A stretch of 64,000 nt of DNA from Parabacteroides sp. (GTDB taxonomy: Bacteria > Bacteroidota > Bacteroidia > Bacteroidales > Tannerellaceae), in the NCBI GenBank assembly GCA_017481945.1, contig JAFUOJ010000022.1, positions 32,274 to 96,273 on the forward strand, given 5' to 3'. This document shows positions 1 through 5,839 of the stretch, piece after piece. A program made the translations under genes and the position numbers. The notes below the pieces were generated by a model, which made no database searches, was not told where the DNA came from, and saw only the letters and a list, made by a program, of their open reading frames with translations. Every line of letters starts with the position of its first letter. Positions within the stretch are counted from its first letter, which is position 1.

Positions 1-98
1 AAATAATTCCCAATCATCGGAATAGTAACACGCCCTCGGAAGTCTGATAAATAAGGCTCAGTAACAAACTGAAATTCTCCTACTTTAGTCTTTTCCAT
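1..98 (-). CDS. Acyl-ACP thioesterase-like protein, N-terminal fragment
   Basis: The first 32 codons are visible; the gene runs off the window edge. The readable N-terminus (MEKTKVGEFQFVTEPYLSDF and onward to GRVTIPMIGNY) resembles the start of the acyl-ACP thioesterase family with a hot-dog fold, which in Bacteroides commonly follows ilvN inside the ilv operon. Its ATG overlaps the TAA of ilvN by one base (TAATG), indicating the same mRNA and translational coupling. The family would release fatty acids from acyl carrier protein in the cytoplasm. No catalytic residues lie in the visible part, so the call rests on the N-terminus and gene order. Confidence 0.6.
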   Translation of the reverse strand, partial: MEKTKVGEFQFVTEPYLSDFRGRVTIPMIGNY

Positions 99-655
99 TA
101 TGCTTTATTTTTTTCTTGCAACTTCCGTTCCATCTCAGCCAACATATCACTTAGACGTTCAACCGGACTTTTTGTAATAGCGACACGACCTGAACGAATA
201 AACTGCAATACGCCTATTGTTTCACTTAATTCTTTAAACAAAGCCTGTGTTTCATCATAATGTCCACTCTTTTCCAACACGACACAGGTTTCATTCATCT
301 CAAGAATACGAGCATTGTATTTACGAATCAAATCTTCAACAGTTCCCATCTTTATAAATAAATCTGTACTTAATTTATAAAGAGCAATCTCTTGGAATAC
401 CAAATCTTCATCCGTATTATAATAAGCTTTCAGTATATCCACCCGTTTGTCAATTTGTTTTACAACCTTATCAATCATATTTTCATCTGCATAGGTTGTA
501 ATCGTAAACTTATGGATTCCTTGTATAGCAGAAGGAGAAACGGAAAGCGTCTCAATATTTAACTGTCGACGCGTAAAGATAATTGTAATCTGATTCAGAA
601 GACCTACGGTATTTTCTGAAAAGATAATAACAGTATATAATTTCTTTGTTGTCAT
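98..655 (-). CDS. ilvN: Acetolactate synthase small (regulatory) subunit
   Basis: Regulatory subunit of acetohydroxyacid synthase, the first shared step of valine, leucine and isoleucine synthesis; it normally binds the end product valine and activates the large subunit. The 185-residue length fits. Residues about 5-80 form an ACT domain (YTVIIFSENTVGLLNQITII, then RRQLNIETLSVSPS), and the C-terminal half is the ALS_ss_C type domain. It lies 18 bases after ilvB and overlaps the next gene by one base, so it sits inside the ilvD-ilvB-ilvN operon governed by the attenuator upstream of ilvD. The last residues (ERKLQEKNKA) are a charged tail. Confidence 0.95.
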   Translation of the reverse strand: MTTKKLYTVIIFSENTVGLLNQITIIFTRRQLNIETLSVSPSAIQGIHKFTITTYADENMIDKVVKQIDKRVDILKAYYNTDEDLVFQEIALYKLSTDLFIKMGTVEDLIRKYNARILEMNETCVVLEKSGHYDETQALFKELSETIGVLQFIRSGRVAITKSPVERLSDMLAEMERKLQEKNKA

Positions 656-673
656 AAACTATTCTCCTTCTTT

Positions 674-2368
674 TTATTCTCCCATCAAGATATTAGTAAT
701 CGTTGATCCTGCAGGAACCATTGGATAAACCATTCCTTGTTCTTCAACATCTGCTACTAACAAGTAAGGACCATCATGTTCTAACATTTCACGAATAGCC
801 TCATCTAATTCTTCTCGTTTTAACACCTCACGTGACGCAATTCCATACGCTTTAGCAATTGCCACAAAGTCCGGATTCTCCATCACTGTTGAAGAATAAC
901 GTTTATGGAAAAACAACTCTTGCCACTGACGAACCATTCCAAGGAAATTATTGTTCAACATGATAATCTTCACATTCAACTTTTCCTGCATGATTGTTCC
1001 CAGTTCCTGAATCGTCATTTGTAAACCACCGTCACCGGTAAAGAAACAGACTGTACGGTCCGGTGCTCCCACTTTTGCACCAATAGCAGCTGGCAAACCA
1101 AATCCCATTGTACCCAAACCGCCAGAAGTTACAACACTACGAGTCTGTTTATATTTAAAATAACGGACTCCCATCATCTGGTTCTGTCCCACATCCGTTA
1201 CCAATACAGCTTCATTATTTGCCGCTTCTGATACTTTACGAATGACTTCTCCCATCTTCAAGTATCCCTCTTTCGGATGTAATTCTTTATCAATCACCTT
1301 TACATACTCTTCTTGAGAGTCAGGTTCAAATTCAGCATTCCATTCCGGACGTTTACGAGTTTCCAACAAAGCTGTAATCATAGGTATTGTCTGCTTCGCA
1401 TTACCCAATACTTTTACATCAACAGCTACATTTTTCCCTATCTCTGAATTATCAATATCCAAATGAATTACTTTCGCTTGTTTAGCATACGTATTCAAAT
1501 CTCCCGTTACCCGATCATCAAAACGCATACCAATCGCTATCAAAACATCACATTCATTCGTCTTACGGTTAGGACCTACATTCCCATGCATACCTAACAT
1601 ACCCTTATTCAACGGGAAATCTGTTGGTAAAGAGGACAAACCTAAGGTTGTACACCCAGCCGGTATATCATTCTTTAATAAGAACTCTTTCAATTCCTCC
1701 TCGGCATTACCCAAGATTACGCCTTGTCCTACCAGACAGAAAGGTTTACTTGCCCCGTTGATCAAAGCAGCCGCTTCTTTAATACGCTCCATCTTAATAT
1801 CTGGCTCAGGCTGATAGCTACGAATATAATCCACTTTTTCATATTCAAAATCTACCAAGCCAACTTGAGCGTCTTTAGCGAAGTCAAGTACTACAGGTCC
1901 TGGACGTCCAGTTGAAGCAATATAAAAAGCACGAGAGACCGCCCAAGCAATCTCTTCCGGTTTACGGATCTGATAAGCCCATTTGGTAATTGGTTGTGTA
2001 ATACCAATCACATCAATTTCCTGAAAGGCATCTGTTCCCAACAATGGAGAAGCGACCTGTCCTGTGATTACAACTAATGGTGTACTATCCATCATTGCGT
2101 CTGCAATACCTGTCAATGTATTAGTTGCTCCAGGTCCAGAAGTAACTAATGTCACCCCTACTTTACCGGAAACACGTGCATATCCTTGAGCCGCATGAGT
2201 TGCCCCTTGTTCATGGCGCACCAAAATATGCTTCAATTTATCTTGATAATCATACAAACAATCATAAACAGGAATCACTGCTCCACCAGGATAGCCGAAG
2301 ATCGTATCAACATCTTCCGCGATCAGCGATTTCAGCAAAGCTTCCGAACCAGTAATTTTTTGTTTCAT
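674..2368 (-). CDS. ilvB: Acetolactate synthase large (catalytic) subunit
   Basis: ThDP- and FAD-dependent enzyme that condenses two pyruvates, or pyruvate with 2-oxobutyrate. Visible features are the catalytic Glu (E53 in RHEQGATHAAQGYAR), the ThDP/Mg site (GDGGLQMTIQELGT followed by LNNNFLGMVRQWQ), and the three-domain length of 564 residues. The reading frame stays open upstream to position 2395, but the start at 2368 (MKQKITGSEALL) matches family N-termini and has an AGGA element about eight bases upstream. The longer version would begin just before the ilvD stop. It is 19 bases downstream of ilvD and is co-transcribed. Confidence 0.95.
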   Translation of the reverse strand: MKQKITGSEALLKSLIAEDVDTIFGYPGGAVIPVYDCLYDYQDKLKHILVRHEQGATHAAQGYARVSGKVGVTLVTSGPGATNTLTGIADAMMDSTPLVVITGQVASPLLGTDAFQEIDVIGITQPITKWAYQIRKPEEIAWAVSRAFYIASTGRPGPVVLDFAKDAQVGLVDFEYEKVDYIRSYQPEPDIKMERIKEAAALINGASKPFCLVGQGVILGNAEEELKEFLLKNDIPAGCTTLGLSSLPTDFPLNKGMLGMHGNVGPNRKTNECDVLIAIGMRFDDRVTGDLNTYAKQAKVIHLDIDNSEIGKNVAVDVKVLGNAKQTIPMITALLETRKRPEWNAEFEPDSQEEYVKVIDKELHPKEGYLKMGEVIRKVSEAANNEAVLVTDVGQNQMMGVRYFKYKQTRSVVTSGGLGTMGFGLPAAIGAKVGAPDRTVCFFTGDGGLQMTIQELGTIMQEKLNVKIIMLNNNFLGMVRQWQELFFHKRYSSTVMENPDFVAIAKAYGIASREVLKREELDEAIREMLEHDGPYLLVADVEEQGMVYPMVPAGSTITNILMGE

Positions 2369-2387
2369 ATTTATTCCTAATTGCCAA

Positions 2388-4220
2388 TTAATCAATAATT
2401 CTCACTCCCCCTTTATCAGCAGAAGTCACCATCTTTCCATAAGCCCGAAGTGCCTTTGAAACTATACGTTGACGATAAGGCGGTGTAAATGCTTTTTCTC
2501 CCCGAGCCTCTTCCGCTTTACAACGCTCTGCCAATTCTTCATCACTTACTTTCACATTAATCGTACGCTCCGGTATATTAATTGCGATCAAATCACCATC
2601 TTTCACCAAACCGATTGCACCACCTGCAGCAGCTTCAGGAGAGATATGACCAATAGAAAGCCCAGATGTACCACCACTAAACCGTCCATCTGTAATCAAT
2701 GCACATTCTTTTCCTAAATGACGACTTTTAATATAAGAAGTCGGATATAGCATTTCTTGCATACCAGGTCCACCTTTAGGTCCTTCATGTGTGATGACAA
2801 CAACGTCACCTGAAACGACCTTTCCTCCTAAGATACCTTCACAAGCTGAATCTTGTGAATCAAACACTTTGGCCGGCCCTGTAAATTTCCAGATACTCTC
2901 GTCAACACCAGCAGTCTTAACAACACAACCATCCAAAGCAATATTTCCTTTTAACACAGCCAAACCGCCATCCTTTGAATAAGCATGTTCAACATCACGA
3001 ATACAACCGGTAGCACGATCTGTATCTAATTCTTTATAATAAGTTTCCTGTGATCCCATCTGAATACTGAAACGACACGCAGGAGCACTCTTATATTTCT
3101 GAATAGCTTTGTCTATTACATTTGGGGAAGTGATTGCATATTTGTCTACCGCTTCTGCTAACGTCATACCATCCACCCGTTTCACACTTCCATCCACCAA
3201 ACCGGCTTTCAATAATTCATTCATGATTCCCATGATACCACCAGCACGGTTAACATCTTGTACATGGTATGTATGTGTATTAGGAGCCACTTTACACAAG
3301 CAAGGAGTCTTGCGTGAAAGCATATCAATATCATCCATAGTAAAATCGGCTTCTGCCTCTTGTGCAATCGCTAATAGATGAAGTACCGTATTTGTCGAAC
3401 CACCCATAGCAATATCTAAAGACATCGCGTTCAAAAATGCCTGACGAGTAGCAATACTACGAGGAAGCACAGATTCGTCTCCGTCACGATAATACTTATA
3501 AGCATTCTCTACAATCTGTTTTGCTGCGTCTCGGAATAACTGAGTTCGATTTACATGAGTAGCAACAATTGTACCATTTCCTGGAAGAGCTAAACCTATA
3601 GCCTCATTCAAACAGTTCATGGAGTTAGCAGTAAACATACCTGAGCAGCAACCACAACCCGGACACGCATGGCGTTCAACTTGTGCAATTCGTTCGTCTG
3701 CAACAGTTGTATCAGCAGATTCAATCATAGCGTCGATCAAATCCAAATGACAATTATCCAATTCTCCTGCCTCCATTGGCCCACCAGAGACAAAAATCGT
3801 CGGAATATTTAATCGCATTGAAGCCATCAACATTCCCGGAGTAATCTTATCGCAGTTACTGATACAAACCATAGCGTCAGCCTTATGTGCATTTACCATA
3901 TACTCCACACTGTCTGCAATAATATCGCGAGAAGGAAGTGAATAAAGCATTCCGTCATGTCCCATCGCTATACCATCATCAATCGCTATCGTATTAAACT
4001 CTGCAGCAAAACAGCCTAACTTTTCAATCTCCGCTTTTACCTGCTGTCCGATTTCATGCAAATGAACATGCCCCGGGACAAACTGAGTAAATGAATTCAC
4101 TATGGCGATAATCGGTTTACCAAACTGCTCCTCTTTCATGCCGTTTGCACGCCACAAGGCACGGGCTCCTGCCATACGTCTGCCCTCTGTGCTGAATGAA
4201 CTTCTTAACGGATTCTTCAT
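2388..4220 (-). CDS. ilvD: Dihydroxy-acid dehydratase
   Basis: Fe-S dehydratase of the third step of Val/Ile synthesis, converting dihydroxy acids to 2-oxo acids. Cluster-binding cysteines are seen in [13 protein letters not shown] and [17 protein letters not shown]; the C-terminal IlvD/Edd barrel contains [20 protein letters not shown] start at 4220 ([20 protein letters not shown]), since residues further upstream (MFFKIKKNM) look like leader DNA. It is the first structural gene of the operon and follows the attenuator at 4315-4449. The gene order ilvD-ilvB-ilvN is typical of Bacteroidales. Confidence 0.95.
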
Positions 4221-4314
4221 CATATTCTTTTTTATTTTAAAGAACATCTTATCAAAATGCTCTTATTTTAACCAAAGGTACGCTAAGCGTATACCTTTAT
4301 TATATTATATAATT

Positions 4315-4347
4315 AAAAAAGCCCTTCTCTATCATGGAGAAAGGCTT
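4315..4347 (-). terminator. ilv attenuator terminator hairpin
   Basis: Read on the minus strand, an 11-bp stem (arms 4337-4347 and 4319-4329, one G-U pair, 7-nt loop) is followed by a U run. It lies about 40 nt after the leader-peptide stop and about 95 nt before ilvD, so it would end transcription before the structural genes unless the alternative pairing at 4336-4389 forms. Confidence 0.85.
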
Positions 4348-4389
4348 AAGATATTTTTATATGAACCAAGTTCTTGCACACCTTTCTCC
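4336..4389 (-). promoter_or_regulatory. ilv antiterminator pairing
   Basis: The minus-strand segment GGAGAAAGG at 4389-4381, starting just after the leader stop codon, is perfectly complementary over nine bases to CCTTTCTCC at 4344-4336, which is the 5' arm of the terminator. The two structures are mutually exclusive. A further five-base match (TCCTT within the Val-Leu codons against AAGGA around the stop) could act as the 1:2 protector stem of classical attenuation. Ribosome stalling at the Ile/Leu/Val run would free GGAGAAAGG and let transcription continue. Confidence 0.75.
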
Positions 4390-4449
4390 TTACCTACTAA
4401 TGCTTAGAAGGACCACCACGAGAATAATATGCAATACACTGTTCATCAT
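4390..4449 (-). CDS. ilv operon leader peptide (19 aa, Ile/Leu/Val-rich)
   Basis: A 19-codon reading frame with the translation MMNSVLHIILVVVLLSISR and a TAA stop lies between the promoter at 4483-4513 and the terminator at 4315-4347. Eleven of the 19 residues are branched-chain amino acids: 3 Ile, 4 Leu and 4 Val, nine of them in an almost unbroken run after His7. This is the hallmark of a ribosome-stalling leader peptide that senses charged tRNA(Ile/Leu/Val). A second in-frame ATG is adjacent, so translation may start at 4449 or 4446. It is too short for normal gene callers. The function is inferred from composition, position and the folding elements downstream. Confidence 0.85.
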   Translation of the reverse strand: MMNSVLHIILVVVLLSISR

Positions 4450-4482
4450 ATTTCTAACCTTTTCGTTTTTTATTTAACGCCG

Positions 4483-4513
4483 CAAAGGTAGAACAATAAT
4501 TTATTTCACCAAA
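4483..4513 (-). promoter_or_regulatory. ilv operon promoter (Bacteroides type)
   Basis: On the minus strand TTTG (4513-4510), a 19-nt spacer and TACCTTTG (4490-4483) match the Bacteroides -33/-7 consensus TTTG/TAnnTTTG. Initiation would fall near 4475, giving a leader of about 25 nt before the leader-peptide ATG. Confidence 0.8.
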
Positions 4514-4632
4514 GAATTTAAAAGAAAAATATCACTTTCGCTTACACTTTTCAATATTCCACAGAATTAGACTTGCAAATTCACACCTTCTATTCCTTTT
4601 TTATAATAAATATACAGCAAAATAGAGTCATT

Positions 4633-4666
4633 AAAAAGCCCCATGCAATCTATCTTGCATGGGGCT
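4633..4666 (-). terminator. Terminator after the phosphoesterase gene
   Basis: A perfect 12-bp stem (4637-4648 with 4655-4666, 6-nt loop) is followed on the minus strand by a U run. It lies about 50 nt after the stop codon of the gene at 4715-5839 and separates it from the ilv promoter. Confidence 0.85.
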
Positions 4667-4714
4667 CTTCCATCAATCGACTGTATACACCCTTTTATTA
4701 GCTACCTAAAAATC

Positions 4715-5839
4715 TTATCTCAACTTAAAAGTCTGAGTAATCTTTTGCGAATCTCCTCCGTAGAAATCTACTTGTACATGACGCTTCGTCACTGTCATTT
4801 TATAAGAACCTGCAGCCTTAGAACTCTTATAAATCTTAACACCCGGACGATATTCATCAAAAAGAGCTTTTTCATGATCCTTTACCTCTTCCCGACCTAA
4901 AGCGAACTTACCATATTCTTCAGGTTTTTCAGCTATCAACTCATAATTAGCCAACTCATCCTTTGACCATACACTATTCATTGTCATCTGAGTTATGCGA
5001 CCTCCATCACCATACCAGTCCAATAAGTCTGTACGATGTGTATGTCCACAAAGACAAATCGTATTACGACGTGCAAACTCTTTACGGAAATGTCTACGAG
5101 CTGTATTATTTCTTTCATTATTTCCTCCATACAAGAACCATCTGCAGCTTCCTCCGTCACAAGGGAATGCAGGACCATGTGTTACCAAAAATGTATGTCT
5201 AGCTCCCTCCGTTTCACGTAATGCATTCTCTAATACCTCATCATCCGGTTTATTAAAATCCACAAACAGATAGACATCATCACCGATATTAAAATAAAAA
5301 GTAGTCTTTGGTATCGTTAAACCTAATTCCTGACTAATTCTCTTTGGCATATATTCATGATAAACCTTCTCTGCATCAACACCTCTAATATCGTGGTTAC
5401 CGACTACAGACACAAACGGTAATCCTCCTAACTCTGCTTTAAAATGGTTCATCACATCTTCCAACATCTTTTGATGTACTTCCCCTTTTCCACAGTCTCC
5501 CTGAACAAGGTCTCCCATCTGGAAAATCATACGAGTCTTTTTGTCTACCAACTCTGCAGCTCTACGTAACAAACGGGGACAACGTTCCCGCCACATTTCT
5601 CCATTACGAGCAAATTCAGCTCGTTGTACCTTATTCAACCATTCTATCTTTTCATTATAATTAGAATGGTACACACTGGCTGGTTCCGTATCAAAATGAG
5701 TATCACCCAAAATAACAATAGAATATTTATCATCTGCACCAAGTTCTTGTGCATTAAGTGGTGATAATTTGCTACAACTACAAAGCGCAAGGTCTAATGC
5801 TCCTGCTGACGATAGTAAAAGAAAATCTCTCCTGTTCAT
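4715..5839 (-). CDS. Exported calcineurin-like metallophosphoesterase
   Basis: A 374-residue phosphoesterase with the metal-ligand motif series of the calcineurin fold: GDTHFD (about residue 45), GDLVQGD, GNHDIRG, THGPAFP and GHTHRTD. These bind two metals and hydrolyse phosphomonoesters or diesters; the substrate is unknown. The N-terminus MNRRDFLLLSSAGALDLALC has a twin-arginine-like RRDFL motif and a Cys-rich stretch (LALCSCS) that could be a lipobox, so it is probably exported, perhaps as a lipoprotein. It is monocistronic with its own terminator at 4633-4666. The 281-bp gap to the divergent patB shows only a lone TATATTTG -7-like element at 6088-6095. Confidence 0.85.
   Translation of the reverse strand: MNRRDFLLLSSAGALDLALCSCSKLSPLNAQELGADDKYSIVILGDTHFDTEPASVYHSNYNEKIEWLNKVQRAEFARNGEMWRERCPRLLRRAAELVDKKTRMIFQMGDLVQGDCGKGEVHQKMLEDVMNHFKAELGGLPFVSVVGNHDIRGVDAEKVYHEYMPKRISQELGLTIPKTTFYFNIGDDVYLFVDFNKPDDEVLENALRETEGARHTFLVTHGPAFPCDGGSCRWFLYGGNNERNNTARRHFRKEFARRNTICLCGHTHRTDLLDWYGDGGRITQMTMNSVWSKDELANYELIAEKPEEYGKFALGREEVKDHEKALFDEYRPGVKIYKSSKAAGSYKMTVTKRHVQVDFYGGDSQKITQTFKLR

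Follow-up and report, generated by a model that had tools for sequence, protein, structure and literature searches.

What controls transcription of the branched-chain amino acid genes in this Parabacteroides sp.? In the window, by which we mean the whole 64,000-nucleotide stretch that was analysed, ilvD, ilvB and ilvN lie together on the minus strand. Beyond the window, ilvN is followed by a thioesterase-like ORF, ilvC, a 391-codon ORF and a terminator; leuA comes after the ilv operon with a leader of its own. On the upstream side, a terminator-like hairpin ends a phosphatase-like gene, so the ilv leader is set apart with its own promoter. We placed leuA, hisG and the homoserine dehydrogenase domain of thrA by family searches, while other gene names were read from the sequences. 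The setting of the operon is as follows.

2388..4247, minus strand: ilvD, the first structural gene; an ORF with a likely start at ATG 4223/4220 (longest ORF start 4247), named from its sequence
674..2395, minus strand: ilvB (acetolactate synthase large subunit), an ORF named from its sequence
98..655, minus strand: ilvN (acetolactate synthase small subunit), an ORF named from its sequence
4637..4666, minus strand: terminator-like hairpin 3' of the upstream phosphatase-like gene, read from the sequence

The enterobacterial ilvGMEDA, ilvBN, his, leu and trp leaders each have an ORF with codons for the pathway, the helices 1:2, 2:3 and 3:4, and the structural genes directly after. The window's leader shares all of these with the enterobacterial ilv leaders, including the adjacent structural genes, but differs from them in its Bacteroidota-type promoter, a covarying hairpin inside the ORF and ilvD as the first gene. 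We know of no sequence likeness between the two. We consider it very probable that the ilvD-ilvB-ilvN-(thioesterase-like)-ilvC operon is controlled by a ribosome-mediated transcription attenuator of the classical type. Read along the minus strand from 4513 to 4315, the leader holds in order a Bacteroidota-type promoter, the leader ORF, an antiterminator strand, a terminator and a U run.

4483..4513, minus strand: promoter, with TTTGG (-33, from 4513) and TACCTTTG (-7, 4490-4483), read from the sequence
4390..4449, minus strand: leader ORF MMNSVLHIILVVVLLSISR and TAA stop, 19 codons, read from the sequence
4420..4434, minus strand: segment 1 (TTGCATATTATTCTC, codons 6-10), the 5' strand of the protector stem, from the fold and covariation
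4393..4411, minus strand: ORF hairpin (CCTTCTAAGCATTAGTAGG, codons 13-19), located within the loop of 1:2, from covariation and RNAalifold
4371..4389, minus strand: segment 2 (GGAGAAAGGTGTGCAAGAA), starting right after the stop codon, with segment 1 (via 4388-4374) or segment 3 as partner
4336..4351, minus strand: segment 3 (TCTTAAGCCTTTCTCC), the antiterminator partner of segment 2, overlapping the terminator 5' arm
4319..4347, minus strand: terminator hairpin of 11 bp (AAGCCTTTCTC / GAGAAGGGCTT), with arms 4347-4337 and 4329-4319
4315..4320, minus strand: terminator U run, read from the sequence

Isoleucine, leucine and valine make up 11 of the 19 leader codons, and eight of these are consecutive (codons 8-15, I I L V V V L L). 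From the first base after the stop, GGAGAAAGG (4389-4381) forms a perfect 9-base match with CCTTTCTCC in the terminator 5' arm (4344-4336), which was equalled by 1 of 300 dinucleotide shuffles of the spacer. An earlier note on this DNA had described a consensus promoter, a 19-codon leader with 11 Ile/Leu/Val codons, a terminator with a U run and this perfect alternative pairing. Each is indeed present: TTTGG and TACCTTTG on the minus strand, the ORF at 4449-4390, the 11-bp arms with the U run at 4320-4315, and the pairing itself. The same note placed the four parts in order within 200 bp before ilvD. Their order holds and the element is 199 bp long, but the distance to ilvD was put loosely, as the U run ends about 92 nt upstream of the conserved ilvD start. 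The note's listing omitted the strand and two conserved helices, the 1:2 protector and the hairpin inside the ORF. Both appear in an unguided fold of the RNA from 4470 to 4305, where 4434-4420 (codons 6-10) pairs with 4388-4374 in segment 2 and the small ORF hairpin sits in the loop. The energy of this fold is -44.3 kcal/mol, compared with -29.6 +/- 3.3 for shuffled sequences (z = -4.48; 0 of 200 shuffles as low).

The anatomy and its conservation are observed; from them we infer a transcription start, translation, termination and a response to starvation. RNA polymerase would start near 4477 and make the leader, and a ribosome would translate its 19-codon ORF. With charged tRNAs available for Ile, Leu and Val, this ribosome would reach the stop codon and cover segment 2, helix 3:4 would form and transcription would end at about 4315. 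When isoleucine, leucine or valine is scarce, the ribosome would wait in the I/L/V codons and cover segment 1, leaving segment 2 free. Segment 2 could then pair with segment 3, blocking the terminator so that the operon is read. Without translation, 1:2 would form and the terminator would form too, leaving the operon off.

For mask folding, the RNA covered by the ribosome was masked under an assumed footprint from the A site to +11; a passage of PMC4833913 puts the footprint as far as 12 nt past the stop codon. For an A site at codons 12-17 (tested at 12, 14, 15 and 17), helix 2:3 reaches about -15 kcal/mol as soon as segment 3 has emerged. At codon 18, codon 19 and the stop, it weakens to -8.2, -2.4 and -2.2 kcal/mol, respectively. 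Under the +11 assumption, segment 2 is predicted to be free whenever the ribosome waits at an I/L/V codon, and hidden only once the ribosome has reached the end. For stalls at codons 10-17, the complete RNA favours the terminator at equilibrium, so antitermination would have to rely on timing, with 2:3 forming first.

IlvD is present in 109 of 123 Tannerellaceae genomes at E<=1e-200. We collected 150 upstream regions: the best 30 family rows (L001-L030, all same genus), 40 of 81 other family rows (L111-L150, four same-genus) and 80 named loci (L031-L110). Regions with no IlvD start (L058, L087, L091, L094, L110), with a false start (L047) or too short (L008, L097, L102) were dropped. With a corrected terminator finder, an ORF and a terminator lie upstream of ilvD in 96 of the 141 testable loci and in 1 of 1410 dinucleotide shuffles, a count that includes repeats (L118 shares the L031 contig; L012-L014, L028/L143 and L121/L122 have identical leader segments). 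The 96 comprise 29/29 from L001-L030, 31/40 from L111-L150 and 36/72 named loci. This recurrence, together with the covariation seen in both 1:2 and 2:3, which are mutually exclusive, makes it extremely unlikely that the element is a constitutive terminator or processing site with the ORF and the complement there by chance. The branched-chain-rich ORF whose conservation the earlier note proposed to test is kept, with its terminator, in all 33 testable same-genus loci (29 from L001-L030 and four from L111-L150, the window's own locus included), and in 27 of the 36 loci from other genera of Tannerellaceae. Among named loci classed by record title, 36 of 60 from Bacteroidota carry the ORF and terminator compared with 0 of 12 from outside the phylum (eight Desulfobulbales-type, two spirochaetes, one Fibrobacter, one Acidobacteria). 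The match at L077 looks like chance. A phylum-wide IlvD search at E<=1e-150 matched only the window's own genome among 198, and is therefore uninformative on leaders in other classes.

The first terminator finder (92/141 ilvD loci vs 7/2820 shuffles) was replaced; it overlooked hairpins in which an A-rich foot is paired to the U run, that of leuA included. By eye, seven of 12 printed misses of that finder have a leader (L034, L035, L042, L043, L046, L114, L135); L035 and L043 are counted in the 96, and the other five stand outside every count. Nine of the 36 other-genera family loci are misses; in the five of these inspected by eye, a leader is seen in L114 and L135 and none in L129, L136 and L146. 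L129 and L146 have coding-like sequence up to ilvD and look like true absences. Eight of the 10 Prevotella- or Prevotellaceae-titled loci tested lack an ORF and terminator match, and attenuation has possibly been lost in part of this lineage. Of the loci so titled, L057 and L065 have no leader and a promoter-like site adjoining ilvD, while L042, also a miss, has a leader by eye.

Two variants were seen among the leaders. Loci titled Marinifilum, Labilibaculum and Marinifilaceae (L093, L103, L107) have two Ile/Val-rich leader ORFs in series within 520 nt upstream of ilvD, each with its own terminator, as tandem attenuators; tandem attenuators are reported for Salmonella mgtCBR (PMC3641672). At four other loci (L024, L029, L111, L147), the leader ORF continues past segment 2 (e.g. 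...VVGQAGERYARR), and a translating ribosome would traverse that segment before stopping.

The leader ORF was compared across 17 distinct 60-nt genus ORFs, drawn from the 25 exactly-60-nt leaders among 29 genus leaders. Single-base codon differences number 372 synonymous and 226 non-synonymous, a non-synonymous to synonymous ratio 0.18 of expectation when related pairs are counted repeatedly. By this measure, the leader ORF evolves like coding sequence. The peptide might instead be an arrest peptide that directly senses a branched-chain amino acid and stalls the ribosome, rather than a series of codons at which the ribosome waits. Conservation does extend beyond I/L/V, with N, H, S and R positions recurring in Tannerellaceae. 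However, pairing of segment 1 can account for the His codon and the ORF hairpin for the VISR tail, both at the RNA level, and other Bacteroidales keep the I/L/V richness while the rest of the peptide changes. We regard an arrest peptide as very unlikely and favour attenuation by codon waiting.

The promoter is conserved as well. TTG-N18..24-TAnnTTTG occurs within 90 nt upstream of the leader ATG in 55 of 60 family leaders (16/3000 base shuffles) and before 21 of 28 named leaders (10/1400 base shuffles); TAnnTTTG is the consensus promoter element quoted in a passage of PMC9723704. Another TACCTTTG lies at 4280-4273, downstream of the terminator and ahead of ilvD. It might have been an unattenuated promoter, a reading we rejected because TAnnTTTG is found there in 1 of 60 family leaders and in 2.2% of shuffles. 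The palindrome TACGCTTAGCGTA (4291-4273, minus strand) overlaps this lone TACCTTTG, probably by chance.

We then aligned 56 distinct family leaders out of 60 first-finder matches (alignment A1); family repeats were removed solely for this alignment. In helix 1:2, 93.3% of cells are paired and 24 cells show changes on both sides, compared with 2.2 +/- 3.0 in shuffles, which in this and the following comparisons do not remove relatedness among leaders. Its best position is column 33, where a synonymous Leu-codon base tracks its partner after the stop (A-U 18, G-C 17, G-U 12, unpaired 3). Helix 2:3 is 89.1% paired, with 20 both-side-change cells vs 7.7 +/- 2.3 shuffled, although 106 of 500 shuffles have as many pairs with changes on both sides. 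Its nine-pair core (97.8% paired) hardly varies, and the outer extension (69.1% paired) has both-side changes at all four pairs. In helix 3:4, for which the leaders had been chosen for having a terminator, 97.9% of cells are paired and covariation is weak (4 both-side-change cells vs 0.7 +/- 0.7). Of the covariation in both stems that the earlier note proposed to test, that in 2:3 is borne out by cells above shuffles; 3:4 holds as a helix but covaries weakly in rows selected for it. The hairpin inside the ORF is 84.3% paired in the same leaders, with 23 both-side-change cells vs 5.6 +/- 1.7 shuffled. Unaided, RNAalifold picked this hairpin together with 2:3; it left out 1:2 and 3:4, both of which are incompatible with 2:3.

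Slid controls were lower on pairing and on covariation score for all four helices, but not on every measure. Three controls for 1:2 exceed the true register in pairs with both-side change (5, 5 and 6 vs 4), and two for 3:4 exceed it in both-side-change cells (5 and 6 vs 4). When the 2:3 match alone was assessed by spacer shuffling in 95 leader-terminator pairs, p<0.05 was reached in 60 and p<0.01 in 42, in a test blind to a segment 2 more than 15 nt upstream of the stop; L011 and L026 each had two overlapping ORFs, of which the stronger was used. In distant lineages, 2:3 is matched by other bases: AAGAAGAAAGGT (L045), TGAGAATGGTTT (L081) and GGAAGGGC (L071). Judged from the sequences, the leader appears to combine the marks of an attenuator: a pathway-codon ORF, coding constraint, a terminator, an antiterminator that excludes the terminator, and the protector 1:2.

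The ORF hairpin is possibly an RNA polymerase pause hairpin, a role that we infer. If the polymerase paused 10-12 nt past the end of this hairpin (4393), it would stand within segment 2, and the pause could determine the timing. A more tentative idea, which we hold to be possible but doubtful, is that the Bacteroidales ilv attenuator is a five-part variant: segments 1-4 plus the ORF hairpin as a programmed pause that lets a ribosome without Shine-Dalgarno guidance catch up, in an order that relies on coupled ilv, leu and his leaders. It would follow from this reliance that transcription and translation are tightly coupled there.

Two further operons of the same genome have leaders that fit their pathways. 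Before leuA lies a Leu-rich leader, MGKELLNSLITSLSILLLWERDRK, with a terminator (L151; ORF about 140-215 nt upstream of the FDTTLRDGEQ motif), and before hisG a His6 peptide, MKRIVLHHHHHHYNEQ, with a terminator (L155:1199-1322). Their folds have z = -6.75 and z = -2.70, respectively. We extended this to the order by drawing most families once, taking 30 of 42 HisG and 30 of 33 LeuA matches. A His-rich ORF followed by a terminator precedes hisG in 22 of 29 testable loci, the window's own included (shuffles 0/580; L180 has no gene start), and a Leu-rich leader with a terminator precedes leuA in 5 of 30 loci (shuffles 0/600). The first terminator finder had given 2/30 for leuA and 10/15 for hisG; the 22/29 for hisG also used a looser gene-start motif. 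These pathway-matched leaders, together with ORF conservation, helices 1:2 and 2:3 and the synonymous-leaning codon change, support the ribosome-mediated attenuation that the earlier note had proposed.

The terminator and the alternative fold in this structured leader would also fit a metabolite riboswitch or T-box RNA that controls the terminator, with the ORF incidental. Against this, the ORF is under coding constraint and codons fit the pathway in three operons, and neither the ilv leader nor any of 20 scanned loci (three from the window's genome) has an Rfam match above the gathering score. At this threshold, a tRNA is the only Rfam match in the whole 64-kb window. A permissive scan of 4200-4720 gave six weak matches far below cut-off, of which PyrR lies over the leader (22.8 bits vs 54). 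The chance that such an RNA explains the locus is extremely small, and we retain the ribosome-mediated attenuator. Bacteroid-trp RNA (RF01692), presumably associated with trp as its name says, has no match to the window's ilv leader above the gathering score and none in the permissive scan. A passage of PMC2864571 lists it as a probable cis-regulatory RNA of Bacteroidetes.

Separate from ilv, the region before thrA offers a more unusual lead. Here, a uORF ends ...TP or ...TPWG(V) over a hairpin ACCCC-YTRG-GGGGT (L218 from the window's own genome, L254-L282, L220-L244, L248). Of 59 Tannerellaceae matches, 30 loci were examined and 25 of them carry the hairpin; across the order, it occurs at 10/29 loci vs 2/1450 base shuffles. 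The peptide YxTWAL...TPWG occurs in 24 of the 25 hairpin-bearing Tannerellaceae loci, and the window's own reads TWTF. A strict pattern matched a single site in each of 6 out of 119 genomes, upstream of thrA in five and of a thrB-like gene in the sixth; it is absent from the window's genome, and a reversed control pattern matched once. In the printed sequences, the hairpin has no adjacent U run, and ten thr loci scanned gave no Rfam match. Rather than counting codons as an attenuator does, the thrA uORF may act as a sensor through its conserved peptide.

The mechanism we propose for ilv is textbook and well understood, and has already been suggested in Bacteroidota, as passages of PMC9723704 show. 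They report strong clues for leader-peptide attenuation before amino-acid biosynthesis operons of Flavobacterium psychrophilum, a member of this phylum, and name neither the operons nor the leaders; the present analysis adds an alignment of the segments, with tests, across 56 leaders. In Corynebacterium glutamicum, ilvBNC has an attenuator with three hairpins (PMC11857589), likewise before a branched-chain amino acid operon but actinobacterial and with another operon order. A passage of PMC7366714 mentions sORFs reminiscent of leader peptides in B. thetaiotaomicron 5' UTRs. As far as the retrieved passages go, a literature search on leader peptides and coupling found no Bacteroidales ilv leader; Vitreschak 2004 is among the papers that may describe one. 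Its abstract reportedly names Bacteroidetes/Chlorobi.

If the leaders work as drawn, the ribosome would be the sensor of isoleucine, leucine, valine and histidine in gut Bacteroidales. According to a PMC9723704 passage about Flavobacterium, the phylum lacks Shine-Dalgarno sequences. A 2026 paper on runaway transcription, in the part consulted, assigns runaway or coupled transcription by phylum-level prediction (PMC13323073), and its main text, as retrieved, has no word beginning 'Bacteroid'. If true, our reading would give indirect evidence of transcription-translation coupling in a phylum said to be without Shine-Dalgarno sequences, and the ilv, leu and his leaders would be ready-made reporters for testing coupling.
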